From a virus, in the IMG/VR virus record IMGVR_UViG_3300027754_000067, positions 1 to 64,000 of that record: a stretch of 64,000 nt of DNA; one strand, given 5' to 3'. Position 1 is the stretch's first letter. Each line of letters begins with the position of its first letter. Both the position numbers and the translations under genes were made by a program. The notes beneath the pieces are model-generated. The model had not been told where the DNA came from and ran no database searches. It saw nothing but the letters and a program-made list of their open reading frames with translations. Shown here in pieces: positions 4,686 through 43,420 of the stretch.

Positions 4686-4711
4686 GAGCGCATACTGCAT
4701 AAATAACGCTT
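4686..4711 (+). other. GCGCATAC hairpin element, copy 1
   Basis: Downstream of a class S gene: GTGGG, stem GAGCG / CGCTT, loop starting CATAC and ending AA. One G-T wobble closes the stem. Member of the 13-copy covarying family. Confidence 0.65.
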
Positions 4712-4826
4712 ATTTTTCCATATAGCCGAATTACTTCTCAAGACCAACTTTGAGCAAAGAATTGGGGCATTAAGTTTAATATTGACTTAAAGTGGTTCAA
4801 GACCATAATATGGTACAAAGTAAATT

Positions 4827-5144
4827 ATGACCGACGAAGAATTTCAAGCTGCTTTTGCTGATTTTGATGATATATCAAGCCAATATACGCCTGTTGACAT
4901 TTTAGCAAAGTATGCTAATGGTGAAAAGCTTGAAGTAGGCTCTTTGTATCGTGCTTTAGATATTTTGTGCTCAGCTTATGGAAGGGTCATAGCTCAAAAT
5001 GGAGATATTTTCATGTGTCTAGAGCAGCTAAATTCTGAGAGTACATCTGAGTATCAAAATTATAAGTTTCTTTTAGAAAATGGAGATATTTTTACTTTTC
5101 GCTATGATCCAACATATAGTTTTTGTGAGAAAGTAAATCCATGA
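4827..5144 (+). CDS. unidentified small protein, 105 aa
   Basis: TTGACT at about 4783 with TAATAT downstream forms a weaker promoter. The middle VGSLYRALD and the strand YKFLLENGDIF loosely resemble the GxLY family. Followed by an ATGA overlap with the next gene. Confidence 0.65.
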   Translation: MTDEEFQAAFADFDDISSQYTPVDILAKYANGEKLEVGSLYRALDILCSAYGRVIAQNGDIFMCLEQLNSESTSEYQNYKFLLENGDIFTFRYDPTYSFCEKVNP

Positions 5145-5392
5145 TTAAATCGGGTAGTCTAGTTCGATGGAAGAACTGGGAGAAATTGAAGAAACATTAT
5201 TTAGTTGGGACTGATTCAAGTAAGAGAATTATTTCAATTAACCAAAGTGATTCTTTAATGTTTTTGGAAGAGATTCGCATTGGTTCCAGTGAGATTAGTG
5301 TTAATGTTGTAAAAGTCTTGACTGGTTCTGGGATCATTGTTACAATTTTGGCTGAAGCTTCTGAGTTTGAGATTTTGGAGGCGGTGAAATAA
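5141..5392 (+). CDS. small GxLY-like protein, 83 aa
   Basis: ATGA overlap with the upstream gene. SGSLVRWKNW at the N-terminus, LMFLEEIRIG in the middle, VVKVLTGSGIIVTI at the end: the same layout as the GxLY family with Val instead of Tyr. Function unknown. Confidence 0.7.
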   Translation: MIKSGSLVRWKNWEKLKKHYLVGTDSSKRIISINQSDSLMFLEEIRIGSSEISVNVVKVLTGSGIIVTILAEASEFEILEAVK

Positions 5393-5395
5393 TTT

Positions 5396-6085
5396 ATGGA
5401 AGCATCTGAGCTAAAAGAGATTCTGGATCAGCACCGGCTTTGGATTGATGGAAAGGGAGGGAGTCGTGCAGACCTCCGTGGTGCAAACCTCCATCGTGCA
5501 AACCTCCGTGGAGCAAACCTCGGAGGTGCAAACCTCGGGCATGCATACCTCTTGCGTGCAGACCTCACTGGTGCAAACCTCTATTGTGCAGACTTGACGA
5601 GTGCATACCTCTCGGGTGCAAACCTCATTGGTGCAAACCTCGGACGTGCAAACCTCGGAGGTGCAAACCTCGGAGGTGCAAACCTCGAACGTGCAAACCT
5701 CGGAGGTGCAAACCTCACGGGTGCAAACCTCAAGGATGCATACCTCACGGGTGCAAACCTCATTAGTGCAAACCTCATTGGTGCAAACCTCAAGGATGCA
5801 AACCTCATTGGTGCAATCCTCTCGGGTGCAAACCTCACGAATGCCATTTTATCTGATGTTTCTTGGATTATTCCCGGTTGTTTGGCTCAGTTGAATAATA
5901 TTGATTATTGTGGCTTTTATCTAGAAAAAGAGAGAAAATACGAAAACTTTATTCAAGACAGCATTGGATTTTTCATTCAAAACAATCCCGAAGAAAAGAC
6001 TTTTGATATGCTCCTTGGAGATCGGATTATTCGAGGTATTCCTGATTGGGTAAAGTATTCGGGAATGAAACAGATTTTGTCATAG
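5396..6085 (+). CDS. pentapeptide-repeat protein with C-terminal domain, 229 aa
   Basis: N-terminal segment ELKEILDQHRLWIDG shared by the whole set, then about 25 A(N/D)LxG-type pentapeptides (residues 25-150), then a C-terminal domain of about 75 residues (FIQDSIGFFIQNNP, GDRIIRGIPDWVKYSG) found again only in the gene at 10994. Pentapeptide repeats fold as a right-handed quadrilateral beta-helix; some members mimic DNA. Each repeat is a 15-bp unit with almost invariant codons (GCA AAC CTC), implying recent amplification. It starts 3 bases after the previous stop. Confidence 0.88.
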   Translation: MEASELKEILDQHRLWIDGKGGSRADLRGANLHRANLRGANLGGANLGHAYLLRADLTGANLYCADLTSAYLSGANLIGANLGRANLGGANLGGANLERANLGGANLTGANLKDAYLTGANLISANLIGANLKDANLIGAILSGANLTNAILSDVSWIIPGCLAQLNNIDYCGFYLEKERKYENFIQDSIGFFIQNNPEEKTFDMLLGDRIIRGIPDWVKYSGMKQILS

Positions 6086-6108
6086 AATTTACTTAGAAAG
6101 ATTAGATT

Positions 6109-6363
6109 ATGGATATCCGAGAAGAGGTTCCGTACAATGCATTTGTTAACATGCCTCCGATGTATTGGCGTAACATTGATGAGGCTAAGGGAGCATTGTA
6201 TTTTCTTGCCGCAATAGATTCAACATTCCCAATAGATGATTTTGCATACAAGCTGCCATTCATTCGTGCTATTGATGCATGTAAAGATTTTGAAGACATT
6301 AAAGAAGTATATTTAAAATATTTCGGTGATAAACACAAGAAAGTAGTTTTGAATTCTCTTTAA
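6109..6363 (+). CDS. unidentified small protein, 84 aa
   Basis: Follows the pentapeptide gene by 23 bases with AGAAAGATTAGATT before ATG. Mostly helical look (FIRAIDACKDFEDIKEVYLKYF). No family recognised. Confidence 0.6.
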   Translation: MDIREEVPYNAFVNMPPMYWRNIDEAKGALYFLAAIDSTFPIDDFAYKLPFIRAIDACKDFEDIKEVYLKYFGDKHKKVVLNSL

Positions 6364-6393
6364 TAATCTTATCAAGAAAGACATAATAGAGTC

Positions 6394-6537
6394 ATGAATC
6401 AGATTTCACTACCAGAAGTAAGCAATGCTTTACTTGATCCATCGATTTTTAATCGATCAACTTTTGTTTTACTGCTTTTGAGTGCAGTGTTTGAATCACT
6501 TATATTAAAGCAATATATCATGTGGATTATGGGTTAA
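6394..6537 (+). CDS. single-span membrane microprotein, 47 aa
   Basis: ATG 6394 preceded by CATAAT and exactly 6 bp, matching the class L geometry, although the -35 (TTTAAT) is weak. Residues 23-45 are hydrophobic (TFVLLLLSAVFESLIL), a probable membrane segment. Function unknown. Confidence 0.5.
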   Translation: MNQISLPEVSNALLDPSIFNRSTFVLLLLSAVFESLILKQYIMWIMG

Positions 6538-6609
6538 TGGAATAGATTGCGGCAAACACATAAAAATTATATCATTGATATCATCAAATAGATAAGGTAA
6601 GTTAACAAC

Positions 6610-6978
6610 ATGGACAAAGATACAAAACTGCTTCTTGGTTGGACGATAACTTGTTTGTTTGCATTAATTCTGATAATCGGATTTACTCCATCGCCCGAAC
6701 GAAGAGTAGATCCTGTTTTAGAAGCCATACAGGAGCGAAACAGGATTTATATTATTGAACGAGGTGCAGAAGATGACGCTTCTGACAAAGCACTATCGGA
6801 GCATCAAGAGGTAAACTATGTAAGATGCTTTCTTCGACCGGCTGGATATGTGACTTGTCAGGTTCATACACCGCCAATGGATGTTGAAGCATATTGCCGA
6901 GCAAGGGGTCCACGGGAGTTTCTTGTTGATGGGAATCGTTGTCGATGGACAAGTCCGTCTTCAATGTCTCATCCATAA
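6610..6978 (+). CDS. membrane-anchored protein, 122 aa
   Basis: Class L promoter: TTGATA 6575-6580, 17 bp, TAAGTT, 6 bp, ATG, with a GCGGCAAACA box at 6549. Residues 8-26 form a membrane segment (LLGWTITCLFALILIIG), then a soluble part with three Cys (YVRCFLRPAGYVTCQV, YCRARG, NRCRW). Probable N-in, C-out topology. Unknown function. Confidence 0.7.
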   Translation: MDKDTKLLLGWTITCLFALILIIGFTPSPERRVDPVLEAIQERNRIYIIERGAEDDASDKALSEHQEVNYVRCFLRPAGYVTCQVHTPPMDVEAYCRARGPREFLVDGNRCRWTSPSSMSHP

Positions 6979-7052
6979 TGTTGCGGCAAACATATTAAAA
7001 AAATAATATTGGTTGACAAATCCAGTAAGATAGGATAGGATAAGGTAATAAC

Positions 7053-7307
7053 ATGAATTGCGAATTTGGATCACCTAGTCGTATCCCTCATTATCTTATG
7101 GATAATAATCCTTTTGTTGATCCTTGCATTGGGTGGACATTAGATCATTATGTGCATCGTCATTGTCCGATGACGAAAAAGGATTTCAGGGAGTTGACTG
7201 ATAGACATGATATGTCTGTATCTCCATGGAGGCAACACTGTGATTGTTTGCTGTGTGATGAGGATATGGAGACAGAGATGGACCAATATCGTTATTGGGC
7301 ACCATGA
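7053..7307 (+). CDS. unidentified small protein, 84 aa
   Basis: TTGACA at 7013, 17 bp, TAGGAT, then 11 bases to ATG: an extra 5-base unit compared with class L. Cys/His-rich (HCPMTKKDF, HCDCLLCDED), which could bind a metal. Heads a small operon with the next two genes. Confidence 0.65.
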   Translation: MNCEFGSPSRIPHYLMDNNPFVDPCIGWTLDHYVHRHCPMTKKDFRELTDRHDMSVSPWRQHCDCLLCDEDMETEMDQYRYWAP

Positions 7308-7310
7308 CTC

Positions 7311-7412
7311 ATGTTTAAGGATGAGTTTCAGATTGCATTACTGATTTTTGTATTCTTTTTGTTTTACAGCATTGGAATGACATTATCAAAGATGGGTTTT
7401 ACAATCAATTAA
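7311..7412 (+). CDS. single-span membrane microprotein, 33 aa
   Basis: Three bases after the previous stop. Hydrophobic core ALLIFVFFLFYSIGMTL (residues 9-25). Too short for family assignment; its position in an operon and intact frame support it. Confidence 0.5.
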   Translation: MFKDEFQIALLIFVFFLFYSIGMTLSKMGFTIN

Positions 7413-7419
7413 GGGTAAA

Positions 7420-7629
7420 ATGGAAAATTGTTTTGTTTGCCGCAAATTTATTGAGGGAGATGATCTGATTAAATCATCTGGCTATTATGTTTGTTCTGGA
7501 TGTTACAAGAAACCAGCCAATAATACTTGTGTGGGAAATTGCGGCAAGAAGTATCAATTGCCATTTAAATTCAATTGCACATCATGCTTCAAACGAGCAA
7601 AAAATATTGACTCCAATCCAGATGCCTGA
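7420..7629 (+). CDS. zinc-ribbon protein, 69 aa
   Basis: AAGGG ribosome site. Cys pairs CFVC, CSGC, CVGNC and CTSC make two zinc-binding knuckles. No catalytic residues evident. The last 10 codons contain the -35 and spacer of the promoter for the next gene. Confidence 0.75.
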   Translation: MENCFVCRKFIEGDDLIKSSGYYVCSGCYKKPANNTCVGNCGKKYQLPFKFNCTSCFKRAKNIDSNPDA

Positions 7630-7641
7630 TATATTCTCTCT

Positions 7642-7806
7642 ATGGAAACAACAAAGCAGTGTGCAAAGCAATTGATTGGCAAGCATCAGGGTTGCGGAGG
7701 TGAAGTGTATTACTTCAGTACTCGTAATTTTGGATTCCGTAAGTGTTTCAAGTGCAATGCAGATGGTATGAGGGGAACGACTTCACCTTCCTTGGAGCAG
7801 GAGTAA
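7642..7806 (+). CDS. CGGE zinc-knuckle protein (copy 1), 54 aa
   Basis: Class L promoter inside the upstream gene: TTGACT 7607-7612, TATATT, CTCTCT, ATG. Contains CGGEVYYFSTRNFGFRKC and CNADGMRGTTSP; paralog at 38322 has CGGEVFYHSGRSFAYRQC and GMHGTLSP. Likely a small zinc-binding protein. Confidence 0.75.
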   Translation: METTKQCAKQLIGKHQGCGGEVYYFSTRNFGFRKCFKCNADGMRGTTSPSLEQE

Positions 7807-7812
7807 ATTAAA

Positions 7813-8145
7813 ATGCTGTGCAAACTGACTGATTCATCTGAAATTCTTTCTGCTTTGTGTATTGCAAAGAATGCATGGGGAATCTACGTAAGCCATTGTG
7901 CCTTTGAGATTGCACATACTGAGCTTAATCGTGCAATCCCATTTCTTAGCGAGGAAGATGTAATCCAGCTGTGGCACAAGGGATACATGTACTTATTCTT
8001 CTCCACCAAGCAAGAGCTTGATAATCATTACAATCAGATTGTGGGAGATGACGGGCCTACTAGCTTGAATGCTTATCATGGGGAAGCACGAGTTTATGCC
8101 CTAACCTGTAATCCTGATGGCAATTCTATGAATGAAAACACATGA
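7813..8145 (+). CDS. conserved phage protein, 110 aa
   Basis: Ribosome site AGGAG overlaps the end of the previous gene. The C-terminal pattern GDDGPTSLNAYHGEARVYALTC...NENT is one I recognise from T4-like and other large phages; function not established. Confidence 0.78.
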   Translation: MLCKLTDSSEILSALCIAKNAWGIYVSHCAFEIAHTELNRAIPFLSEEDVIQLWHKGYMYLFFSTKQELDNHYNQIVGDDGPTSLNAYHGEARVYALTCNPDGNSMNENT

Positions 8146-8154
8146 TCAAAAGTG

Positions 8155-8427
8155 ATGGATAACATTCAATTAGGAAAAATATATCAATTTAATTATGGAG
8201 TATGGCCTCTGCCGTATGGCTGGAATACCATTGACGAAGCAAACGTATGTTATACCAAAGGTATTTGTTATGGGCTTGTTGAGGATTTATGTTTGGTTTT
8301 GGAATGCAAGCCATTTGATTCAAAATTTGATGATGACTATTTTGCTGTCAAAGTTTTGATAGAAACTGGCAATATATACTGGATATGCGTGAATCAAGAC
8401 GCATTAGTTTTAGCCGCAAAAGAATAA
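8155..8427 (+). CDS. small GxLY-family protein, 90 aa
   Basis: ATG 8155 preferred over the adjacent GTG 8152. LGKIYQFN opening, LVLECKP in the middle and VLIETGNIYWI near the end fit the GxLY plan. Confidence 0.7.
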   Translation: MDNIQLGKIYQFNYGVWPLPYGWNTIDEANVCYTKGICYGLVEDLCLVLECKPFDSKFDDDYFAVKVLIETGNIYWICVNQDALVLAAKE

Positions 8428-8435
8428 TAAAACCC

Positions 8436-9173
8436 ATGAAAATTAAATTAGTTTCTTTTATTTTATTGATGGCTGGTTGTAGTGATCCATCTTTGTCTGA
8501 ATCAGATAACAATCATTGTATTGAAATTGGTTTAAACTTAACAAGAGCTTTCAGTGATTTCAATGGAGATGCTGGTCAGCAAGGTAGATATAACAATGAT
8601 TATTCTTGTGCTGTTTTAAATGACGCACAACTTCCTGGTATTGATTTCTCTAGCCCATATATTCCATACAGTCCACATAGACCTTTTCAAGTATGTGAAA
8701 CAGGCTTTACATCACCACCACAGCTTTGTCTTACAAATCTCAAGAATGCTAATATGGCGAGGATTAATCTTAGTGGTGCAAACTTATCCAGGGTAGTGTT
8801 GCATGATGCCAATCTTCAAGGTGCGATATTAAATCGTGCTCTTCTAATTGGAACAGAGTTTTACAGGGCTAATCTACAGACTGCTGATATGAGAAATGCA
8901 AATGCTACTAGAGCTTATTACAATCAAGCATTTATGCTAGGAGCTAATTTGTCGTATTCTGTATTAACCGAAGCAAACTTAACCGAAGCAAACTTAACCG
9001 AAGCAAACCTTAGTGATGCAGTGCTAGTAAATGCAAATCTTAACAGAGCTAATTTACAAAATGCAGACTTAACTGGTGCCAATCTAACAGGAGCTACTTT
9101 TCTTGGTGCCGATCTTCGAGGTGCAATTTTAGATAGAGTTCTTGGCTTTAACGAAACAGGAGCTATTCGCTAA
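8436..9173 (+). CDS. pentapeptide-repeat lipoprotein, 245 aa
   Basis: The start at 8436 gives a lipoprotein signal peptide MKIKLVSFILLMAGC with lipobox LMAGC, so the mature protein would be lipidated at Cys15 and exported. Residues 115-240 hold about 20 pentapeptides ([26 protein letters not shown]). Unlike the other pentapeptide genes, its codons for repeats vary, so it is older or of separate origin. An exported lipoprotein in a phage may act at the host envelope, for example superinfection exclusion (inference). Confidence 0.82.
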   Translation: MKIKLVSFILLMAGCSDPSLSESDNNHCIEIGLNLTRAFSDFNGDAGQQGRYNNDYSCAVLNDAQLPGIDFSSPYIPYSPHRPFQVCETGFTSPPQLCLTNLKNANMARINLSGANLSRVVLHDANLQGAILNRALLIGTEFYRANLQTADMRNANATRAYYNQAFMLGANLSYSVLTEANLTEANLTEANLSDAVLVNANLNRANLQNADLTGANLTGATFLGADLRGAILDRVLGFNETGAIR

Positions 9174-9226
9174 AGTATAGTTGATAATTGTTTGACATGT
9201 TCAGTGAGATAAGATAGGATAAGAAC

Positions 9227-9565
9227 ATGAAGACGAATGATGTCACGTTGGATATTCCCACTGGTTTGACTGAGAGTGGTCTGAAGGCTGCAAATATTAT
9301 TCTTGCTTTTATGGAAAAGCATAATATGAGCACTGGAGGATGTCGTTTGTTTTATTCTCCTGAGCAATGGAAGGCTCGTGGTGAAGAATATGGAACTACA
9401 TCTGAGTTAATTTTTGTTTATGATGGTGGTGATTTGTTTGATGTATTGAATGGATACATTGAAGGTTCATACCGAATGATGGATGAATTCACCAAGGCTC
9501 TTGTAGATGGAGGTTTTAACTACGAGCCTTGCACGCATTGGTATTCGGCTGTACATGCTGATTGA
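9227..9565 (+). CDS. conserved phage protein, 112 aa
   Basis: Class L promoter TTGACA 9192-9197, TAGGAT, AAGAAC, ATG. The C-terminal CTHWYSAVHAD and the preceding YDGGDLFDVLNGY are familiar from other large phages. Unknown function. Confidence 0.75.
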   Translation: MKTNDVTLDIPTGLTESGLKAANIILAFMEKHNMSTGGCRLFYSPEQWKARGEEYGTTSELIFVYDGGDLFDVLNGYIEGSYRMMDEFTKALVDGGFNYEPCTHWYSAVHAD

Positions 9566-9578
9566 GGGGTAAAAAACA

Positions 9579-9779
9579 ATGATTAGAGTTATTGGATTTG
9601 ATTCTAGTGTAACGTTGAGACATGTGACTTGTAATAGTTGTCATGCGATCAATGAATTTGATCCAAAGCGTGATATGGTATCAATGGAGCCATTTGGATC
9701 TACTAACAGGCATTCAATGATTCGTTGTGGTAATTGCCATCAATATGTTTCCACGGACAAAGCTCGTCTAGTTGGCTAA
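9579..9779 (+). CDS. zinc-ribbon protein, 66 aa
   Basis: GAGGGG ribosome site. Two Cys pairs, CNSC (about residue 19) and CGNC (about residue 51), with a 28-residue spacing. Second cistron behind 9227. Confidence 0.75.
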   Translation: MIRVIGFDSSVTLRHVTCNSCHAINEFDPKRDMVSMEPFGSTNRHSMIRCGNCHQYVSTDKARLVG

Positions 9780-9848
9780 ATTTTTGCGGCAAACATCTAA
9801 AAAATAATATTGTTTGACTTCTCCAGCAAGATAGGATAAGGTAAGAAC

Positions 9849-9974
9849 ATGGAAGAAGAAATCTATGATTCTGAATATGATGACTCAATGGATGGAGATC
9901 ATGATTCCTGCATGAATTCTATTGGTTGGGGAGATGATGATGCTTATGGTTCCTGTAATGAGGAAGACTACTGA
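9849..9974 (+). CDS. acidic microprotein (copy 1), 41 aa
   Basis: Canonical class L promoter (TTGACT 9814-9819, TAAGGT). More than a third Asp/Glu; YDDSMDGDHDSCMNSIGWG resembles YDDSMDGDFDSGMASAGWG in the larger paralog at 38571. Very acidic phage proteins sometimes mimic DNA (inference only). Confidence 0.65.
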   Translation: MEEEIYDSEYDDSMDGDHDSCMNSIGWGDDDAYGSCNEEDY

Positions 9975-10032
9975 AATTAAGGCTTGAGTTACATTAAGAA
10001 ACCTGTTAATCTACTTCTAGAGGAAAAAACAA

Positions 10033-10512
10033 ATGCCGAACTGGTGCAACAATCATTTCACGATTTCTCATTCTGATCCTATGATGTTGGAGAAGATGGT
10101 TCAAGCGTCAATTGCTGAAAAGCTTGGTGAAACCTTTGTACCTATTCCAGATTCAGTCCGAGATAATTCCCGTGACTTTTGTGTTGACAATTGGGGAACC
10201 AAGTGGGATTTTGGATGTAAGGATATTTCTACCTTTGGAGATGATATTTACTCAGGATATTTTGATACTGCTTGGGCACCACCCGTGGAATGGTACACTG
10301 CGATGTCAGAGATTGGATTTAGGATTGAGGCACACTGGCATGAAGGAGGGAATGGTTTTGCTGGATCATTTATTGATGGCGAGGTAACGGAATATAATAA
10401 CCTTGACTGTGATTCATTTAAGGAATTGCCGCAGGAGTTTGATGAACTGTTTGGGCTACATGAGCAATATCAGCCAGAAGAAGAGTCATTCGACTCAGAA
10501 GATATCCCCTGA
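10033..10512 (+). CDS. Api92-like protein (MPNWC family), 159 aa
   Basis: Class S promoter TTGAGT, 17 bp, TAATCT, with GAGG before ATG. Starts MPNWCNNHFTI and contains WGTKWDFG and FDTAWAPPVEW, then a C-terminal ferredoxin-like part (HWHEGGNGFAGSF). This is the conserved phage/prophage Api92 / DUF1281 type; biochemical role unknown. Followed by about 100 bases with AGAGTCTC repeats and no gene. Confidence 0.88.
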   Translation: MPNWCNNHFTISHSDPMMLEKMVQASIAEKLGETFVPIPDSVRDNSRDFCVDNWGTKWDFGCKDISTFGDDIYSGYFDTAWAPPVEWYTAMSEIGFRIEAHWHEGGNGFAGSFIDGEVTEYNNLDCDSFKELPQEFDELFGLHEQYQPEEESFDSEDIP

Positions 10513-10682
10513 TAGACCGCCACCAGAGTCTCTATAGGGCATTCTTTTGCTTATCACGAAACATCCCACAAGACAGGCAGCAAACCTCCTAGAGAGTCTC
10601 TAAAGAGGATTTAATATAGCTGCGGCGAACACTTTAAAATTAAATCATTGACTTCTTCAGCAAGATAGGATATAACAAAAGC

Positions 10683-13056: not shown

Positions 13057-13075
13057 TTTAAGGGATCACGGTGGG

Positions 13076-13101
13076 GAGCGCATACCGATTGAATCACGCC
13101 C
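13076..13101 (+). other. GCGCATAC hairpin element, copy 2
   Basis: GGTGGG, GGAGCG, loop CATACCGATTGAATCA, CGCCC. Here the A of GAGCG must be bulged or mismatched, so this is the least perfect copy. Confidence 0.5.
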
Positions 13102-13944: not shown

Positions 13945-14640
13945 ATGAAAAAGATCACTGCAACGGAACTGAAGAGCATTCTTGCAAACCACAAGCTTTG
14001 GATTGATACCAATGGTAAACAAGGAAACTTTGCAAACCTCCGTGGTGCATACCTCGGGGGTGCAAACCTCTCGTATGCAAACCTATCGTGTGTAAACCTC
14101 CGTGATGCAGACCTTACGAGTGCAGACCTTACGAGTGCAGACCTCACGGGTGCAGACCTCACGGGTGCAAGCCTCATCCTTGCAAACCTCGAAGGTGCAG
14201 ACCTCCGTGGTGCAAACCTCCGTGGTGCAAACCTCGAAGGTGCAAACCTCGAAGGTGCAAACCTCCAATGGGCAAACCTCCAATGGGCAAACCTTACTGG
14301 CACGATTATTGATAAGAAGAAAGAACAAGGAACCACAATGATTCTGTCAGAAGAAGAAACTGCTGCTATTCTCAAGATGCGAGCCGATAAGGTCAATAAA
14401 GCCAAGATCGATGCAAGAGATATTGTGATTGAAGTTATTACTCTTGTTACACTCGAACTTTCAAACAATCGACCAAGTAACACACTTATCATGCGAACTG
14501 ATGATTGTGATGAAGATATTGGTTCAGAAAACCTAGAAACCATTTCTCAGATTTTGGATCTCATGGGAGTGAAGTTCTTGGCACTTACTGCAAATCGACG
14601 AGCAATCACTTTTGACTACAAGAAGCTTAATAGCCTTTGA
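13945..14640 (+). CDS. pentapeptide-repeat protein with unique C-terminus, 231 aa
   Basis: Class L promoter TTGACT 13910-13915, TAAGGT. N-terminal KSILANHKLWIDT, about 19 repeats (ANLRGAYLGGANL, two QWANL units), then a roughly 110-residue helical C-terminal region (ILSEEETAAILKMRADK, TLIMRTDDCDEDIGSENL) not found in the other copies. Confidence 0.87.
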   Translation: MKKITATELKSILANHKLWIDTNGKQGNFANLRGAYLGGANLSYANLSCVNLRDADLTSADLTSADLTGADLTGASLILANLEGADLRGANLRGANLEGANLEGANLQWANLQWANLTGTIIDKKKEQGTTMILSEEETAAILKMRADKVNKAKIDARDIVIEVITLVTLELSNNRPSNTLIMRTDDCDEDIGSENLETISQILDLMGVKFLALTANRRAITFDYKKLNSL

Positions 14641-23611: not shown

Positions 23612-23627
23612 TTGATTGAGCGGTGGG

Positions 23628-23655
23628 TTGGCGCATACCGATTTAAGCACGCCAA
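23628..23655 (+). other. GCGCATAC hairpin element, copy 3
   Basis: GGTGGG, stem TTGGCG / CGCCAA (6 bp), loop CATACCGATTTAAGCA. Follows the KTSC gene. Confidence 0.7.
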
Positions 23656-25399: not shown

Positions 25400-25416
25400 T
25401 TCGGGTTCTGGTGGGA

Positions 25417-25442
25417 TGGCGCATACCAATCGAATAACGCCA
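25417..25442 (+). other. GCGCATAC hairpin element, copy 4
   Basis: GTGGG, stem TGGCG / CGCCA, loop CATACCAATCGAATAA. Compensatory change relative to GAGCG/CGCTC copies. Confidence 0.7.
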
Positions 25443-27204: not shown

Positions 27205-27225
27205 ATGGCGGGTCAAACCAGAGGG

Positions 27226-27256
27226 GAGCGCATTCTGGGTCAAAGATTTAACGCTC
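27226..27256 (+). other. GCGCATAC hairpin element, copy 5
   Basis: Stem GAGCG / CGCTC with a 21-base loop beginning CATTC and ending AA. The tRNA-like sequence begins 13 bases later. Confidence 0.62.
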
Positions 27257-27268: not shown

Positions 27269-27342
27269 GCCCATGTACGCCAACTGGTCGAGCGGAGATT
27301 TTCAAAAATTCTTGCATGTAGATTCGAATTCTATCATGGGCA
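27269..27342 (+). tRNA. tRNA-like sequence, anticodon CAA
   Basis: Acceptor GCCCATG/CATGGGC, D-stem CGC/GCG, anticodon stem AGATT/ATTCT (one U-U mismatch) around TTCAAAA, 5-base variable loop, T-arm GTAGA-TTCGAAT-TCTAT. CAA would read Leu UUG, yet Leu tRNAs have a long variable arm, and no CCA is encoded. It may be a degenerate or atypical tRNA. Confidence 0.5.
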
Positions 27343-34758: not shown

Positions 34759-34770
34759 TTTAACAGTGGG

Positions 34771-34791
34771 GAGCGCATACTTAAAACGCTC
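34771..34791 (+). other. GCGCATAC hairpin element, copy 6
   Basis: CAGTGGG, stem GAGCG / CGCTC, 11-base loop CATACTTAAAA. Same loop as copy 10. Confidence 0.72.
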
Positions 34792-34798
34792 AAGTTTT

Positions 34799-35241: not shown

Positions 35242-35262
35242 CAAATAGCGTACCAAGGTGGG

Positions 35263-35288
35263 GAGCGTATACCAATCCAATAACGCTC
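35263..35288 (+). other. GCGCATAC hairpin element, copy 7
   Basis: GGTGGG, stem GAGCG / CGCTC, loop TATACCAATCCAATAA. Confidence 0.7.
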
Positions 35289-35684: not shown

Positions 35685-35705
35685 TAAGTAGGATGCCAAG
35701 TGGGA

Positions 35706-35726
35706 GGGCGCATACTTATCACGCCC
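35706..35726 (+). other. GCGCATAC hairpin element, copy 8
   Basis: GTGGG A, stem GGGCG / CGCCC, loop CATACTTATCA. Compensatory pair relative to copies 6 and 7. Confidence 0.72.
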
Positions 35727-37448: not shown

Positions 37449-37697
37449 ATGGTTCAGTTCTCTGATGGCTTCAAGGTTTCGATTGGGGATACCGTTGGAT
37501 TCTTTACTCGCCATGGTTCCAATGGTAGAGGTGAAGTAATTGGCTTCTCCCGCAGCAGGGGAGCAACCACTGTGCTTGTCAAGCCCAATGCAGAAACCAA
37601 TTTCGGATCTTATGACCGTTGGCCCTTGAAGGATGGTGGCTTTTATTCACGCATGGAATCCGAGGGTCTCTTTGGGGGAGAGATTTTCCGCAAGTAG
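37449..37697 (+). CDS. small beta-barrel-like protein, 82 aa
   Basis: Class S promoter TTGACT, 17 bp, TAGAGT; leader GATTGAAGAAAGCGAGAGG. VSIGDTVGFFTRHG, GRGEVIGFSRSRGATTVLV suggests an SH3-like barrel. Confidence 0.7.
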   Translation: MVQFSDGFKVSIGDTVGFFTRHGSNGRGEVIGFSRSRGATTVLVKPNAETNFGSYDRWPLKDGGFYSRMESEGLFGGEIFRK

Positions 37698-37771
37698 CAT
37701 ACCAAGTTTTGCGGCAAACACCTTAAAATTAATCCTTTGACTTCTCAACCAACAAAGGGTAAGGTAAGAAC

Positions 37772-37960
37772 ATGGAAGCAAACCTCAGGCAGTATCAGAT
37801 TGATGCAATCAACCAAGGATATCCTTGGGAGTGTGCTTGCGGAGAACTACATCGCACGAGAGAATCAGCAGTTAGTTGCCGCAAGTGTCGGCAGTACTGC
37901 ATGGATCATGCCAATAGATCCAATCCCATTGATCTCCGCACCATCAATCTTAACAAGTAA
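37772..37960 (+). CDS. zinc-knuckle protein, 62 aa
   Basis: Class L promoter TTGACT 37737-37742, TAAGGT, AAGAAC, ATG. CACGELH and CRKC pairs around residue 22-40, probable zinc site. Confidence 0.68.
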   Translation: MEANLRQYQIDAINQGYPWECACGELHRTRESAVSCRKCRQYCMDHANRSNPIDLRTINLNK

Positions 37961-38321
37961 GCTAATAGTGTAAAGCAAAAAATTAATTAATGGAAAAACC
38001 GGGAAGCGCATGGTATAAACGCTTATTATTCCGATCGCAAAAGAAAATTAATTCTGCGAACACTATATATCCAGTGAAAGCTAATTGACTCTGCCTAAGA
38101 ATGAACGGCGCTGTATGCTAGATATGCATGACGGCAGACAAGAAAAGTTTTCAATGCCTTGAATCAGTTAGAATAACATAACTCCAGCCTGAAGTCAATC
38201 AATTTAAACATATTGAAACGACCAAGGGCTTTCGGTGTTTGTTGCCAATGCAAAAACAATGCCGCAAACATACCAATTTTAATCCTTTGACTCTTCAAGC
38301 AGAATCAAGTAAGGTAAGAAT
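37961..38321 (+). other. 361-bp gene-free stretch
   Basis: Holds hairpin copy 9 (38004) with an overlapping promoter-like TGGAAA-17-TATAAA, a second TTGACT (38086), a GCTGTATGCTAGATATGCATGA segment and a GCCGCAAACA box (38261). No ORF of note; could encode a small RNA. Confidence 0.45.
38004..38024 (+). other. GCGCATAC hairpin element, copy 9
   Basis: Stem AAGCG / CGCTT, 11-base loop CATGGTATAAA; compensatory A-T pair. The loop contains a TATAAA that could act as a -10. Confidence 0.65.
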
Positions 38322-38507
38322 ATGAAGAGCCGATTGAATCAAATCAAGGCGTCACTCACTGCACCTCGCATGATCGGAAACCACAAGGAATGCGGTGGTG
38401 AGGTGTTCTATCACTCTGGCCGCAGTTTTGCTTATCGTCAGTGCAGTCAGTGTGGCCAAAACGGAATGCATGGAACCCTTAGCCCCACACTTGAAACAGA
38501 GCGATAA
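38322..38507 (+). CDS. CGGE zinc-knuckle protein (copy 2), 61 aa
   Basis: Class L promoter TTGACT 38287-38292, TAAGGT, AAGAAT, ATG. HKECGGEVFYHSGRSFAYRQ, CSQCGQNGMHGTLSP; paralog of 7642. Confidence 0.74.
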   Translation: MKSRLNQIKASLTAPRMIGNHKECGGEVFYHSGRSFAYRQCSQCGQNGMHGTLSPTLETER

Positions 38508-38570
38508 AAGAACTTCTCTGATTTAATCCTTTGACAATCCAACCAACAAAAGGTAAGGTAAGGTAAGAGC

Positions 38571-38786
38571 ATGAACAACGAGATCTCTGAGTATGAAGGC
38601 TGGGAGAATGATTACGATAACTCCCATGGTGACACTCAAGGTGATACCTTTACCGACGATGGTGCCGATCCCGGTGGAGACAACTACGATGATTCAATGG
38701 ATGGTGACTTCGACTCTGGCATGGCAAGTGCAGGTTGGGGTACAGATGAATCTTATGGATATTTCGGAAACGATGAAGATTTCTGA
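38571..38786 (+). CDS. highly acidic protein (copy 2), 71 aa
   Basis: TTGACA 38531, 17 bp, TAAGGT, 11 bases to ATG (three TAAGG units, one more than usual). About 30% Asp/Glu with Gly; DDSMDGDFDSGMASAGWG links it to 9849. Candidate DNA mimic on composition only. Confidence 0.68.
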   Translation: MNNEISEYEGWENDYDNSHGDTQGDTFTDDGADPGGDNYDDSMDGDFDSGMASAGWGTDESYGYFGNDEDF

Positions 38787-38794
38787 ATAATCCC

Positions 38795-38823
38795 TTGACT
38801 CTTCCTTAGCTTCCTGATACTCT
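38795..38823 (+). promoter_or_regulatory. orphan class S promoter
   Basis: TTGACT 38795-38800, 17 bp, TACTCT 38818-38823, then a leader (TTAACTGAAAACAAAGACAC) like that of 40036 but with no ORF before the next promoter. Remnant of a lost gene, or a second promoter for 38910. Confidence 0.6.
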
Positions 38824-38909
38824 CTCTTAACTGAAAACAAAGACACAAACCAAGTCCAGAGATAAAAGAATCTCTTGACAATCCAAACAGGAAAGTGTAG
38901 AGTAGAACA

Positions 38910-39455
38910 ATGAAGATCACCGCTAACGATCTGGTGGCCGCTGTTTCTAACGCTTCTGGCTTCTGTACGGTAACGACCCGTACTGTACCCCGAATGAAGG
39001 GTGGCAAGAGCAACCCTTATGCCAATCGTGTTTGGAATCGTACTGAGCGATGCGGAATGTTTGGCGTCTCTTATGAGAATGCCGTCCGCTCCCAGCGGAC
39101 TCGTGAAGGCCACGAGGAGCCTAGCAGCTTCCATGCCGAGTCTCTCTGGAAGGGTGCTGGAAAGCGTCTCAATCGGAACATCGTGGAGAACGTGAACACT
39201 GGCAAGCTTTACATGGTGATGTATCCCGTCCGTGCAAACGGTATGCCAGCGAACCGCAGCACGGAATGGTTTGTCGATGATCGCCCTGCAACGGAGCAGG
39301 AGGTGGCAGAGATCAAGCAATACCTGTACCAGCCTTCCTTTAATCCTGCTGCAAAGCAGGAGACTGAAGAAGCGGTAGCTTGGCGCACCTTTTGCCTTGA
39401 GAATGTCGAGGTTGTTAACTGTGAGGGTAACACCTTTGAGGTGTCTTACAGCTAG
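38910..39455 (+). CDS. conserved phage protein, 181 aa
   Basis: Class L promoter TTGACA 38875-38880, TAGAGT, AGAACA, ATG. GGKSNPYANRVWNRTERCGMFG, YMVMYPVRANG: similar proteins occur in large phages. Unknown function. One of the longer genes of this region. Confidence 0.76.
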   Translation: MKITANDLVAAVSNASGFCTVTTRTVPRMKGGKSNPYANRVWNRTERCGMFGVSYENAVRSQRTREGHEEPSSFHAESLWKGAGKRLNRNIVENVNTGKLYMVMYPVRANGMPANRSTEWFVDDRPATEQEVAEIKQYLYQPSFNPAAKQETEEAVAWRTFCLENVEVVNCEGNTFEVSYS

Positions 39456-39463
39456 CAACCATC

Positions 39464-39511
39464 ATGCCAAGGACAAGGGTTCTGCCATAAACGGAACCCT
39501 TGTCTCGGCAT
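39464..39511 (+). terminator. 3' hairpin after 39455
   Basis: ATGCC-AAG-G-ACAAGGGTTC pairs with GGAACCCTTGTCTCGGCAT, with one bulge. No U-run. A nearly identical core (AAGGGTTC/GGAACCCTT) recurs at 41105. Confidence 0.5.
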
Positions 39512-39709
39512 CCTACCAGAACCCTCCTAAGCGCCTTTAAACGGCCCTAGAAGGCTCGCAAACGCCAACAACGGGCAATCTGCCATTGGCGCAGCAAGAG
39601 GCATAGAATAGCCTTTAAATCAGTCATGCAAAGGCAATGCCAAACTCTGCGGCAAACACACTAAATTTAATTCATTGACTCTTCAATCAGAATCCAGTAA
39701 GGTAAGAGC
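39512..39709 (+). other. 198-bp intergenic stretch
   Basis: GC-richer, with TTAAACGGCCC and GCGCAGCAAG segments but no ORF; ends with a GCGGCAAACA box (39649) and the class L promoter of 39710. Confidence 0.4.
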
Positions 39710-39964
39710 ATGAACAGCAGAGATCATGAGGAACTAACAGAGATCCACGAGAAGATGCTTGAACTCGTGAATGATGTTGAAAGAATCATGCGACGAGAAG
39801 GAGGGATTGAATATGAGCGAGCCAAGGGATATTGGCTTGCAAACATTAAAATGGGATTGACAAACAATCATGGGTATCTTAGTATGCCCATGTTCAACAT
39901 GGAAACTGCAATCAGTGCGCTGGAACCATGCGAGGATGAAGATCAGGAAGAAGATTCCGATTAA
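39710..39964 (+). CDS. paralog of 16947, 84 aa
   Basis: Class L promoter TTGACT 39675-39680, TAAGGT, AAGAGC, ATG. DHEELTEIHEKMLELV, MRREGGIEYERAKGYWLA; acidic tail EDEDQEEDSD. Intact promoter here shows what 16947 looked like before the mobile element. Confidence 0.74.
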   Translation: MNSRDHEELTEIHEKMLELVNDVERIMRREGGIEYERAKGYWLANIKMGLTNNHGYLSMPMFNMETAISALEPCEDEDQEEDSD

Positions 39965-40035
39965 GTTAATCCCTTGACTCTCCCTTCAAACCCTGATAAT
40001 CTCTCCTAACTGGAACGGAACAAAGGAGCAACAAA

Positions 40036-40266
40036 ATGAAGTGCTGCAAGGTTTCTATCTCTGGAATGATGCACTCCCATGATTGCCTTGACAATCCAAG
40101 GGAATATGTCTATAGCTTCTATCAGGATTCCGACGACTCCGACGATGATACTATCCAAACGGCTCACGTTTCAATCGTCGAGCAAAACGAAGAGCCCGAA
40201 TCCGATCATGGCACCATGATTGCATCAGATGATTCCGAGGATGACAACGACGAAGATTCCGATTAA
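40036..40266 (+). CDS. acidic protein, 76 aa
   Basis: Class S promoter TTGACT, 17 bp, TAATCT; AAAGGAGC ribosome site. The C-terminal two thirds are Asp/Glu/Ser-rich; ends DNDEDSD. Confidence 0.67.
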   Translation: MKCCKVSISGMMHSHDCLDNPREYVYSFYQDSDDSDDDTIQTAHVSIVEQNEEPESDHGTMIASDDSEDDNDEDSD

Positions 40267-40275
40267 GTTAATCCC

Positions 40276-40304
40276 TTGACTCTGCAATCCAAGTCTGATA
40301 TAAC
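40276..40304 (+). promoter_or_regulatory. orphan class S promoter
   Basis: TTGACT 40276-40281, 17 bp, TATAAC 40299-40304, leader with GGAGGGAAG but no ORF before the next promoter (TGGACT 40351, TAAAAC). Confidence 0.6.
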
Positions 40305-40403
40305 AGAATAGTCGGAGGGAAGAACAAAACAAAGAGCAGCAAAAGAATCACTGGACTTCTGAATCGCAATCTGGTAAAACAGTCTCTAGAAGGAATCAGA
40401 CAA

Positions 40404-40721
40404 ATGAACTTCACCATCCCGAATCGTATCATTGTCTCTAACTCCCTTGGTTTCCGCTATCATGCGAAGAATCCCGGCAAGCTCTTTGCCATGTCTGTCA
40501 AGGGACAGGATCGTGAAACCGTGTTCACGGTGCTTTCACTCAAGGGAAGCATGGGCCGACCTTGCAAGGGTGATACCAAGGGTTTCGGAGTCAAGACTCA
40601 TGCCGTGATCCGAAACGGATTCACTGGCCGAAAGTCCACCGTGCTTCTGTCAACCCTTGTTGACCGCAATGTGCGATATGTTGGCATGAAGCATGAAGTG
40701 ATCGCCTACTTTAGCCGGTAA
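40404..40721 (+). CDS. basic protein, 105 aa
   Basis: Class S promoter TGGACT, 17 bp, TAAAAC; leader AGAAGGAATC. Lys/Arg-rich, beta-rich; GRPCKGDTKGFGV. Could bind nucleic acid. Followed by hairpin copy 10. Confidence 0.7.
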   Translation: MNFTIPNRIIVSNSLGFRYHAKNPGKLFAMSVKGQDRETVFTVLSLKGSMGRPCKGDTKGFGVKTHAVIRNGFTGRKSTVLLSTLVDRNVRYVGMKHEVIAYFSR

Positions 40722-40740
40722 GCAATAACTGTACCAGTGG

Positions 40741-40761
40741 GGAGCGCATACTTAAAACGCT
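40741..40761 (+). other. GCGCATAC hairpin element, copy 10
   Basis: CAGTGGG, stem GAGCG / CGCTC, loop CATACTTAAAA, identical to copy 6. Confidence 0.72.
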
Positions 40762-40848
40762 CAAATTTTGCGGCAAACACCTTAAAATTTAATACCTTGA
40801 CTCTCCCTTCAATCTCTGATAGAGTGATTGAAGAAAGCGAGAGACTGA

Positions 40849-41088
40849 ATGACAACTTACATCCTCAAGAATGGTGAGATTGTTTTGTTTCTTGTCATGG
40901 CAACGGAACCTATTGGTGGATGCCGTTTACCTTATCTTAAAACATTCTCGGAGGATGAAGCATTGAATGCCGCAATGACGCTTGAATCTGATTGGGGCGC
41001 TGGTGCAAGGGTAAAGATTTGTGAGCACTACATCTCCCAAAGAATGTGGGAACACAAGTACAAAACCCCTTGGCCTATCGCTCAATAG
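40849..41088 (+). CDS. unidentified protein, 79 aa
   Basis: Class S promoter TTGACT, 17 bp, TAGAGT; leader GATTGAAGAAAGCGAGAG. Trp at three positions near the C-terminus. No family recognised. Confidence 0.68.
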   Translation: MTTYILKNGEIVLFLVMATEPIGGCRLPYLKTFSEDEALNAAMTLESDWGAGARVKICEHYISQRMWEHKYKTPWPIAQ

Positions 41089-41296
41089 CAAACACCATAC
41101 CAAGGCAAGGGTTCCAATCCAACGGAACCCTTGCTCTGGTATCCCTCTCTAATATGCCTCTCTCTGGCATCAGGAACGCCCAACAGAGCCGTTAAATCCT
41201 TTCAACGGACAATCTACCGTTAGGGAAATGAGAGCCCAAGAAACGCTGCAAATCTGTCAATAGGAATAGCAGGGCAAACACCTTAAAATTAATCCT
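41089..41296 (+). other. 208-bp intergenic stretch with strong hairpin
   Basis: ATACCA/TGGTAT outer and GCAAGGGTTCC/GGAACCCTTGC inner stem (41097-41142). Rest without ORF; a degenerate GGGCAAACAC box near 41271. Confidence 0.5.
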
Positions 41297-41349
41297 TTGA
41301 CAATCTAACAGGAATCCAGTAAGATCAAAACAGATCAAAGAGAGCCTAG

Positions 41350-41376
41350 ATGAACAAAAGCCGAGACGGCCCCTAA
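41350..41376 (+). CDS. mini-ORF 1 (MNKSRDGP)
   Basis: ATG to TAA, 8 codons, in unit 1 of the triplicated array. Peptide diverged from the other two in two residues. Weak leader site. Confidence 0.35.
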   Translation: MNKSRDGP

Positions 41377-41474
41377 TAAAATCCTTTGCAAACCTCTGGA
41401 GTGCAGACCTCAATTAAATGCCTTGACTCTTCAATCAGAATCCAGTAAGATCAGAACATAACAAAGGAACCTAG

Positions 41475-41501
41475 ATGCAAAAGATCCGAGACGGTCCCTA
41501 A
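41475..41501 (+). CDS. mini-ORF 2 (MQKIRDGP)
   Basis: Eight codons with AAAGGAACC 6 bases before ATG, in unit 2. Two stop codons in tandem (TAATAA). Confidence 0.38.
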   Translation: MQKIRDGP

Positions 41502-41612
41502 TAAAACTCTGTGCAAACTACACGGGTGCAAACCTCAATCAATGCCTTGACTTCTCATTCAGAATCCAGTAAGATCAGATCACAAAGCAGATAACTAAAA
41601 GGAACCAACTAG

Positions 41613-41642
41613 ATGCAAAAGATCCGAGACGGTCCTATCTAA
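41613..41642 (+). CDS. mini-ORF 3 (MQKIRDGPI)
   Basis: Nine codons with AAAAGGAACC upstream, in unit 3. First seven codons identical to mini-ORF 2. Confidence 0.38.
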   Translation: MQKIRDGPI

Positions 41643-41661
41643 ACTTCCTACAATCAATGGT

Positions 41662-41690
41662 TTGACATACCGGGGAGCGCATGGTATAAA
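41662..41690 (+). promoter_or_regulatory. promoter of tRNA-Leu, overlapping a hairpin element
   Basis: TTGACA 41662-41667, 17 bp, TATAAA 41685-41690. The hairpin copy 11 lies across spacer and -10. Confidence 0.65.
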
Positions 41691-41695
41691 CGCTC
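41675..41695 (+). other. GCGCATAC hairpin element, copy 11
   Basis: Stem GAGCG / CGCTC, loop CATGGTATAAA as in copy 9. Here it coincides with the -10 of the tRNA promoter, so a DNA-level role is possible. Confidence 0.65.
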
Positions 41696-41708
41696 ATTAC
41701 TAAGAAAA

Positions 41709-41797
41709 GCCCGAATGGTGGAATCGGCAGACACCGGAGACTTAAAATCTCTTGCTGCGAAAGTAGCGTACCAGTTCAAGTCTGGTTTCGGGCACCA
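41709..41797 (+). tRNA. tRNA-Leu (UAA)
   Basis: Acceptor GCCCGAA/TTCGGGC, D-arm with GGTGGAATCGGCAGAC, anticodon stem GGAGA/TCTCT with loop CTTAAAA (anticodon TAA), long variable arm TGCTGCGAAAGTAGCGTA, T-arm with GTTCAAGTC, and encoded ACCA. 89 bases. The window's AT-rich coding makes UUA codons common, which such a tRNA would support. Confidence 0.93.
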
Positions 41798-41800
41798 TAA

Positions 41801-41817
41801 AAGAGATTTTAAGTCTC
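41801..41817 (+). repeat. inverted copy of the tRNA-Leu anticodon arm
   Basis: AAGAGATTTTAAGTCTC is the exact reverse complement of 17 bases of the tRNA anticodon arm (41737-41753), 4 bases after the tRNA end and just before the next -35. It can itself form a 5-bp hairpin. Confidence 0.65.
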
Positions 41818-41869
41818 TTGACTTAAAACAAACAATCCTGTAAGCTAAGAACATCAAGGGAGCAAAACA

Positions 41870-42040
41870 ATGCAAACCAAGAAGCAAGCCATCAAGGATT
41901 TTCGGGAATTTCTCTTGCCTTCCATCCCAAACAATGATACCATCGCCAAGCAAGAAGCATGGAATAATTATACTGATGCTCTTTGCAAGAGCCGTTTTAT
42001 TACCCTTCGCCAATATGAAAACTGGACTAACCCCTTCTGA
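41870..42040 (+). CDS. conserved phage small protein, 56 aa
   Basis: Class S promoter TTGACT 41818-41823, 17 bp, TAAGCT; leader with AAGGGAGC. WNNYTDALCKSRFITLRQYENW with C-terminal NPF is familiar from many phage genomes. Function unknown. Confidence 0.75.
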   Translation: MQTKKQAIKDFREFLLPSIPNNDTIAKQEAWNNYTDALCKSRFITLRQYENWTNPF

Positions 42041-42106
42041 TTTAATCCCTTGACTATCCAGTGAGAGTCTGATAAAGTCAGGAAAGATCAGGGAGCAAAA
42101 GAAACC

Positions 42107-42307
42107 ATGAAGATCAACCATCGCACTGGATCTGTCAAGCGTTTGGACCATCACGAGAACTATCGCTTTAACAAGTCTGGCTTGAAGGAGGAAGGTAACA
42201 CGGTTCGCCGCTGCATGGATCGTGCCGCAATCAAGAACAGCCTTGAAGGCAACGATGGCACGCTCTTTGCTCGCAGCAAGGAAGGAAACCCTTGGAACTT
42301 CGATTGA
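42107..42307 (+). CDS. basic small protein, 66 aa
   Basis: Class S promoter TTGACT, 17 bp, TAAAGT; leader with CAGGGAGC. Arg/Lys/Asn/His-rich. No family recognised. Confidence 0.68.
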   Translation: MKINHRTGSVKRLDHHENYRFNKSGLKEEGNTVRRCMDRAAIKNSLEGNDGTLFARSKEGNPWNFD

Positions 42308-42392
42308 TTTGCAAGTAGCATACCAAGTTTTGCCGTAAACATACCAATTTTAATCCTTTGACAATCCAACCAACAAAGGGTAAAGTAAGAAC

Positions 42393-42692
42393 ATGGAAAC
42401 GACGAACAAGGTTTGGACAGAGGCCGCAATCGTCTCTCTGCTCCAGAGCAACAATCGTGCCGTCGAAAGGGCAATCCTGGCAATCTTTGCTCGGCAAACG
42501 GAGGATGAGAAGTCAACGGAATGCACCCGGCACGAGAACTCTCGTGGATTCTCTGCGGCTGATGCCCGTACCGGCTCCTACATGGCACGCTGGATTAGCA
42601 GCGGAAAGCGTCTCGATGGAAAGTTTCTTGACAAGGCCCGAAAGATGGCCGTCAAGTACCGCAAGCAACTGGTAGAGGTTGCCAACGGCTAG
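42393..42692 (+). CDS. conserved small protein, 99 aa
   Basis: Class L promoter TTGACA 42358-42363, TAAAGT, AAGAAC, ATG. LLQSNNRAVERAILAIFARQ, QTEDEKSTECT, NSRGFSAADARTG, KARKMAVKYRKQL: a pattern common in phages and plasmids, without known function. Confidence 0.8.
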   Translation: METTNKVWTEAAIVSLLQSNNRAVERAILAIFARQTEDEKSTECTRHENSRGFSAADARTGSYMARWISSGKRLDGKFLDKARKMAVKYRKQLVEVANG

Positions 42693-42712
42693 CAAACAGC
42701 ATACCAGTGGGA

Positions 42713-42734
42713 GGGCGCATACTTTATCACGCCC
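42713..42734 (+). other. GCGCATAC hairpin element, copy 12
   Basis: CAGTGGGA, stem GGGCG / CGCCC, loop CATACTTTATCA. Confidence 0.7.
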
Positions 42735-42779
42735 ATTGCCGTCAACAAAACTCTGCGGCAAACAAACAAATTTAATTAC

Positions 42780-42808
42780 TTTACTTCATTCCCTAATCAT
42801 GCTAATGT
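42780..42808 (+). promoter_or_regulatory. orphan class S promoter
   Basis: TTTACT 42780-42785, 17 bp, TAATGT 42803-42808, then about 60 bases of leader-like sequence (CAACCAACAAAAGCAAGCAC) without an ORF, followed by the class L promoter of 42904. Confidence 0.55.
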
Positions 42809-42903
42809 CAGGACACATCAGACAACGGCAACCAACAAAAGCAAGCACAAGGGAATCAAAACAATCCCTTGACAATCCAACCAACAAAGGGTAAAGTAAG
42901 AAC

Positions 42904-43374
42904 ATGGAAACCAAGAGCAACACGGTTCACATCTTTCAGGCGGCTGGTCTCGGCGTCGGTCCCTTCAAGCTTCACCATGTATCCGGTGAGGGAGGAAAGT
43001 GCCAGTACTGTGCCACTCCGATTCTGTGGCGTTTCTATCTCAATGGCATTGACGGCTCTACTTTCTTCGTTGGATCGGATTGTGTCATGAAGACCGGCGA
43101 TGCGGGACTCATGAAGATTGTTGACGCAGAAGTCAAGCGCCGAATGGCAGAAGCCCGAAAGGTCCGTGAGGATGCCAAGCTGGCATCTGTCAAGGAAAGC
43201 ATGAAGGATGCCAACGTGCTTGCCAAGCTGGCAACCCTCCCACACCCGAATGGTTACTATGCCCGCAATGGCAAGACTCTTGCAGACTATGCCTCGTGGA
43301 TCGTGAAGTACGGTGGCAAGACTGCAATGCTCAACCTTGGCAAGAGTATTGCAAAGGCTACCGTCTCGGCCTAG
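42904..43374 (+). CDS. conserved phage protein, 156 aa
   Basis: Class L promoter TTGACA 42869-42874, TAAAGT, AAGAAC, ATG. VHIFQAAGLGVGPFKLHHVS, CQYCATPI and FFVGSDCVMKTGDAGL form a motif set known from many phages; a zinc-binding Cys pair is likely. Helical basic middle. Followed by hairpin copy 13. Confidence 0.8.
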   Translation: METKSNTVHIFQAAGLGVGPFKLHHVSGEGGKCQYCATPILWRFYLNGIDGSTFFVGSDCVMKTGDAGLMKIVDAEVKRRMAEARKVREDAKLASVKESMKDANVLAKLATLPHPNGYYARNGKTLADYASWIVKYGGKTAMLNLGKSIAKATVSA

Positions 43375-43394
43375 TCAATCTGACAAACGGTGGG

Positions 43395-43420
43395 AAGGCG
43401 CATACCGGGAATCACGCCTT
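43395..43420 (+). other. GCGCATAC hairpin element, copy 13
   Basis: GGTGGG, stem AAGGCG / CGCCTT (6 bp), loop CATACCGGGAATCA. Two compensatory pairs compared with copy 3. Confidence 0.72.

Follow-up and report, generated by a model that had tools for sequence, protein, structure and literature searches.

A predicted H-type RNA pseudoknot of 27–40 nt recurs close to stop codons in one viral genome and across unrelated phages

What kind of element recurs in the first 64,000 nucleotides (nt) of the IMG/VR virus record IMGVR_UViG_3300027754_000067, and what might it do there? An earlier note on this stretch, which we call the window, had described a thirteen-copy hairpin family with compensatory stem changes. 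All thirteen copies were found where the note had placed them; its coordinates mark the 5' arm of the noted stem, and the element starts 5–9 nt earlier. The noted stem is only stem 2 (S2) of an H-type pseudoknot, whose stem 1 (S1) lies in the GTGGG/CATAC flank. As S1 covaries independently of S2, a simple hairpin was ruled out. Covariation in both stems shows the repeat unit to be a single predicted H-type RNA pseudoknot of 27–40 nt.

The consensus is xGU-GGG-NNGCG-CAU-ACx'-NNNMA-CGCN'N'-A. Its arms follow one another as S1, GGG, S2, CAU, S1', loop, and S2', which is the order of an H-type pseudoknot. S1 has 3–5 base pairs of free sequence, S2 is NNGCG/CGCNN, and CAU separates the arms. The third loop is usually 5–7 nt long and ends with (A or C)A. 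The canonical form is 27 nt long, and the variants differ from it by extension of S1 or of the third loop or by GGGA as the first loop (L1). GGG, GCGCAU, and the (A/C)A before CGC are conserved, with the qualification that the search patterns fixed part of these. The base just 3' of the element, which the patterns did not fix, is usually A (A 75%, C 2%).

In the window, the bases before GGG form at least three Watson–Crick pairs with the bases after CAT in 13 of 13 copies, whereas shuffled arms reach this in a mean of 4.2 of 13 copies (maximum 11, 20,000 shuffles). The S1 arms change in concert from GT..AC to CC..GG at 37998 and 41667 and to GA..TC at 27218, which explains the variation that had been noted as "CATAC or CATGGT." Likewise, the GTGGG start applies to most copies, but those noted at 27226, 38004, and 41675 begin with GAGGG or CCGGG, and CATAC becomes CATTC or CATGG. 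Covariation of the noted stem stood as well, except that the copy at 13076 combines GAGCG with CGCCC and thus has an A·C mismatch, and the copy at 4686 closes with a G·U pair.

A scan of the window with a pseudoknot descriptor gave 13 copies on the + strand and 0 on the − strand. The same descriptor found a mean of 0.0 copies in 100 Markov-1 simulated windows with the dinucleotide make-up of the window. These simulations, together with the paired and mispaired contrasts given below, rule out a chance origin of the 13 copies. They are single units spaced hundreds to thousands of bases apart (Table 1). The rest of the 86.5-kilobase (kb) record holds no further copy with the pattern GGGNNGCGCAT, which variants with a longer S2 would escape.

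To be independent of pairing in the selection, IMG/VR was scanned with a pattern that fixes only GT/AC in S1 and GCG/CGC in S2, and at least 119 stretches were obtained. Both free positions of S2 are paired in 89.7% of this set (25.6% when shuffled), and the free third pair of S1 is formed in 93.5% (50.4% when shuffled). Covariation was counted on 44 distinct gap-free 27-mers; MAFFT on mixed loop lengths had misaligned S2. In these 27-mers, 98.6% of the cells are paired compared with 81.1% after shuffling, and both sides change in five of the eight pairs. The covariation score is 0.474 versus 0.113 for shuffled sequences, none of 500 shuffles reaches it, and slid registers score at most 0.072. 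The claim of a selected RNA structure was thus borne out, with covariation above every shuffled and slid control.

Contrasts between paired and equally composed mispaired arms point the same way. For S2, the paired combination GC..GC occurs in 59 IMG/VR contigs and the mispaired GC..CG in 0. For S1, paired GA/TC occurs in at least 120 contigs and mispaired GT/TC in 15. S2 is also formed in 65 of 79 copies with S1 GA/TC versus 3 of 13 with GT/TC, and in 26 of 69 copies with CC/GG versus 7 of 58 with CC/CC. In the pattern-matched set that was not chosen by pairing, the outer pair of S2 is G–T eight times and C–A twice, an excess that is expected if the mRNA-sense strand folds. The element is transcribed from the mRNA-sense strand.

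The pseudoknot is not confined to this phage. It forms a large family over hundreds of very different, unrelated phages. Among the carriers, the shortest contig is Microviridae-like, with 5.6 kb, and the longest has 297 kb; tailed phages and contigs of jumbo-phage size are included. The 5.6 kb contig (L082) has a capsid gene matching the Microviridae F protein, and its pseudoknot copy follows this gene. Named carriers are the Mycobacterium phages Indlulamithi, Imvubu, and the Faith1 group and the Rhodococcus phages Shagrat, Francesca, and Dorin. These came from searches with other copies, as BLAST with one copy matched no phage record; BLAST matches in coding sequences, e.g., in Yersinia, were judged to be chance, and one match in Pseudomonas falls in a stretch that carries no annotation. 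A record usually has 1–4 copies, and 13 is the highest number seen. Hits in bacterial genomes are far fewer: a related pattern matched 11 stretches when 257 billion bases of bacterial and archaeal genome sequence were scanned. Some of these are chance matches in coding sequences, and others are in Corynebacterium and several metagenome-assembled genomes; since the viral and the bacterial/archaeal scans used different patterns, the two frequencies give no exact ratio.

The earlier note had not recognized a known motif, and no Rfam 15 family, terminator families included, matches the element in the window at the gathering threshold; six related loci gave transfer RNAs (tRNAs) only. At E ≤ 10, Rfam gave one chance-level match, on the other strand. 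No description of the motif was found in the openly accessible literature. We rate the element as a new RNA family that belongs to a known structural class and is unusual in place and breadth.

The nearest named candidate by topology and nearness to ssb is the STAXI motif (RF01728), a candidate pseudoknot RNA near genes for single-stranded-DNA-binding (SSB) proteins (PMC2864571). In STAXI, two or three pseudoknots follow one another in tandem, in many cases with UUCG loops, and the model has 153 positions, whereas the element described here is a single unit of 27–40 nt with a GGG/GCGCAU core. The STAXI model had no match in this genome even at E 10 and none at the gathering score in the window or the six related loci; the plasmid F region around ssb had no STAXI match either. 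Another relative in form is the gene 32 operator of T4, T2, and RB69, an H-type pseudoknot of ~28 nt on phage mRNA that is linked to an SSB gene (PMC535899, PMC3014915). This operator is located 5' of gene 32, has a UUAAA-rich stretch, and binds gp32, whereas many unrelated genes have the present element on their 3' side. As it is 3' of ssb also in the lineage that carries it next to ssb, an autogenous operator of the T4 gene 32 type, with its place 5' of the SSB gene, is not supported.

ToxI of type III toxin–antitoxin systems is a short pseudoknot RNA linked with phages, and its tandem array is processed by the adjacent toxin; in contrast, the copies described here are dispersed single units with no fixed partner gene. 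Stabilizers of the REP/BIME type and 3' stem-loops are structured 3' RNAs which block 3'–5' exonucleases. They are hairpins and mostly chromosomal, unlike the pseudoknot with its conserved core in mainly phage sequences, but the role proposed below is alike.

Table 1 Coordinates and stems of the predicted pseudoknot copies in the window
Copy	Position	Strand	S1	S2	Further features
1	4678..4711	+	GCAGT/ACTGC	GAGCG/CGCTT	one G·U in S2
2	13069..13101	+	CGGT/ACCG	GAGCG/CGCCC	one A·C mismatch in S2
3	23621..23655	+	CGGT/ACCG	TTGGCG/CGCCAA	
4	25409..25442	+	TGGT/ACCA	TGGCG/CGCCA	L1 GGGA
5	27218..27256	+	CCAGA/TCTGG	GAGCG/CGCTC	tRNA-Leu(CAA) at 27269, ~13 nt on
6	34765..34791	+	AGT/ACT	GAGCG/CGCTC	canonical 27-nt form
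7	35257..35288	+	GGT/ACC	GAGCG/CGCTC	TAT replaces CAT
8	35698..35726	+	AAGT/ACTT	GGGCG/CGCCC	L1 GGGA
9	37998..38024	+	ACC/GGT	AAGCG/CGCTT	
10	40736..40762	+	AGT/ACT	GAGCG/CGCTC	
11	41667..41695	+	ATACC/GGTAT	GAGCG/CGCTC	tRNA-Leu(TAA) at 41709, ~14 nt on; RDGP mini-ORF 24 nt before
12	42706..42734	+	AGT/ACT	GGGCG/CGCCC	L1 GGGA
13	43388..43420	+	CGGT/ACCG	AAGGCG/CGCCTT	

What the pseudoknot might do is best approached from its position. The stop codon of an open reading frame (ORF) lies at most 70 nt upstream of 132 of 158 distinct copies. The gap between stop codon and S1 is never below 3 nt, is mostly 5–15 nt, and in about half of the cases does not exceed 10 nt. In the window, the stop codon of an upstream ORF or mini-ORF precedes each copy by 6–37 nt, in agreement with the noted location in the 3' region of genes. 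When a stop codon occupies its A site, a ribosome probably opens RNA structure no farther than about the distance between stop codon and S1, so the element is about as near to the stop codon as folding allows. A start codon is found at most 70 nt downstream of 123 of the same 158 copies, often 10–16 nt away, and its distance is looser than that of the stop codon.

From sequence and position, our tentative best reading is that the element sets an mRNA boundary near the stop codon, most probably as a 3'–5' exonuclease barrier that would protect or mark mRNA ends. The pseudoknot would act as a boundary on the upstream transcript. Just past the reach of a ribosome halted at the stop codon, it would stay folded during translation and would block 3'–5' exonucleases once the downstream RNA has been cut or the transcript has ended. 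Within an operon, the upstream cistron would become more stable than the next one. This would suit products made in large amounts, SSB and capsid proteins among them.

Genes for these proteins are indeed recurrent upstream neighbors. In the set with S1 GA/TC, 21 of 55 upstream proteins match an SSB family and 5 of 55 match major-head families. A syntenic unit of an SSB gene (ending ..PF), the pseudoknot, and thymidylate synthase is present in loci L338–L455, e.g., L349, L354, and L365. Several points weigh against the exonuclease barrier. About 20 of the SSB cases represent one syntenic lineage and are not independent, which weakens the argument from abundance, and the upstream genes in the window are small and have no assigned function. 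Outside the window, most copies lie between closely spaced genes on the same strand, and closeness to the stop codon could merely reflect compact genomes. Moreover, GGG and CAU are invariant although unpaired, which points to a particular binding partner or to chemistry in addition to mechanical blocking.

These bases are also consistent with binding of a ligand or protein, and the first alternative is that the element is a regulator in the 5' untranslated region of the downstream gene, either riboswitch-like or as a protein-bound operator in the style of T4 gene 32. Many copies outside the window end 10–16 nt before a start codon, with a Shine–Dalgarno-like sequence just after the copy. In addition, a copy adjoins ssb in one lineage, and binding of SSB to small pseudoknots of phages has been described (PMC535899). 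We nevertheless consider such a regulator unlikely because the downstream genes are diverse, the distance to the start is looser than that to the stop, some copies precede tRNAs, and one copy (locus L106) has no close same-strand start downstream. As the gene families are diverse on both sides, a gene-specific regulator was ruled out.

The promoter layout of the window is a further point against regulation of the next gene. In many cases, a TGCGGCAAACA box and a promoter-like site stand between the copy and the next gene, so these copies belong to the upstream transcript. On the + strand between 966 and 45000, there are 38 promoter-like sites, each with TTGAC[ACT], 17 nt, and TAnnnT (commonly TAAGGT) and each exactly 6 nt before ATG; the − strand of the window has none in this arrangement. 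This array probably marks leaderless genes, and the Shine–Dalgarno leaders proposed earlier fit this layout poorly. As TGCGGCAAACA(C/T) with an A-rich stretch behind it, the conserved box occurs at about 30 + strand sites, e.g., at 9785, 27355, 34798, and 43541. It lies 26–31 nt before TTGAC-type −35 boxes and is probably a promoter-upstream DNA element.

Five copies are found shortly before tRNAs: copies 5 and 11 of the window, a copy before a tRNA in L158, one before an eleven-tRNA cluster in L412, and one with tRNA-Lys 48 nt on in L199. For the exonuclease barrier, RNase P cleavage at the 5' end of the tRNA would give an upstream RNA whose last folded part is the pseudoknot. Location between cistrons and at mRNA–tRNA junctions would also suit an RNA cleavage site that separates cistrons and tRNAs, either a putative self-cleaving ribozyme or a signal read by an endonuclease of the host or phage. 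The compact fold with its invariant unpaired bases and favored 3' A, as well as the spread over unrelated phages, speaks for such a site, but no Rfam ribozyme family matched, and 27 nt is unusually small for a ribozyme. Its probability is low, and we place it after the 5' regulator. A broader version would be a putative new class of minimal RNA machine common to unrelated phages, in which the 27-nt pseudoknot either is catalytic itself, as a self-cleaving ribozyme with the core GGG/CAU/MA/A, or binds a single, universal host factor, and polycistronic phage RNA would be cut or capped where it has stop codons and tRNA junctions. This version seems improbable, and it ranks below all alternatives discussed here except recoding.

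A transcription terminator or attenuator which reduces transcription beyond the upstream gene is doubtful and stands between the cleavage site and this broader version. The location at gene ends, the G+C-rich S2, and the separate promoter-like sites of downstream genes in the window are in its favor. A T-rich stretch follows few copies (22 of 216 have six or more T within the following 10 nt); most have no T tract, and the mean T content of the 10 nt after a copy is 28%. As the T tract is not general, an intrinsic U-tract terminator was rejected. In L106, by eye, a terminator-like hairpin with a T run follows the copy, which is thus no substitute for a terminator there.

Finally, the element might be a recoding signal that drives readthrough of the stop codon before it or a frameshift there. 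Spacings of 5–9 nt from the stop codon, as seen in many copies, resemble those of known recoding pseudoknots. In luteoviruses and retroviruses, such pseudoknots are compact H-type folds a few nt past the codon at which the ribosome pauses. In contrast to these, no frame relation was found here, and no extension product is expected: the downstream starts are distributed over the frames as 41/35/29 with no strong preference, the stop codons are mixed (TAA 66, TGA 37, TAG 29), and the next in-frame stop past the element is often close. Copies before tRNAs leave nothing to extend. Without a fixed, open downstream frame, a recoding stimulator is disfavored and highly improbable.

The family adds a structured RNA outside Rfam 15 whose small size makes it easy to overlook. 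As unrelated phages have kept its fold, they must have a partner or constraint in common, with a host RNase, the ribosome, or RNA polymerase as the probable one. If mRNA is stabilized or separated by the element, phages would have a general way to balance gene output without extra promoters, and the pseudoknot would be a small part, 27 nt long, with which mRNA stability could be engineered. Since the carriers include phage isolates from Mycobacterium smegmatis and Rhodococcus equi, the element is directly testable.

Further features of the window were observed. Mini-ORFs of 8–9 codons with the ending RDGP lie at 41350, 41475, and 41613, and another is near 2197 in L180. The peptides are MNKSRDGP*, MQKIRDGP*, MQKIRDGPI*, and MKNGIRDGP*, and each has a promoter-like site to itself. 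RDGP resembles the end of IRAGP, the arrest motif of SecM, and the mini-ORFs are possible stalling peptides. A near-identical gene start, ATGAAGAAGATCACTGCAACGGAACTGAAG..., is found at 13945, 21251, 22631, 27417, 29137, and 32152 and indicates a paralogous family or a shared 5' module. A repeated hairpin, CATGAGCAGGAAACCCAC...GTGGGAGGAATGCGAATC, is located on the − strand near 79 and 16902.

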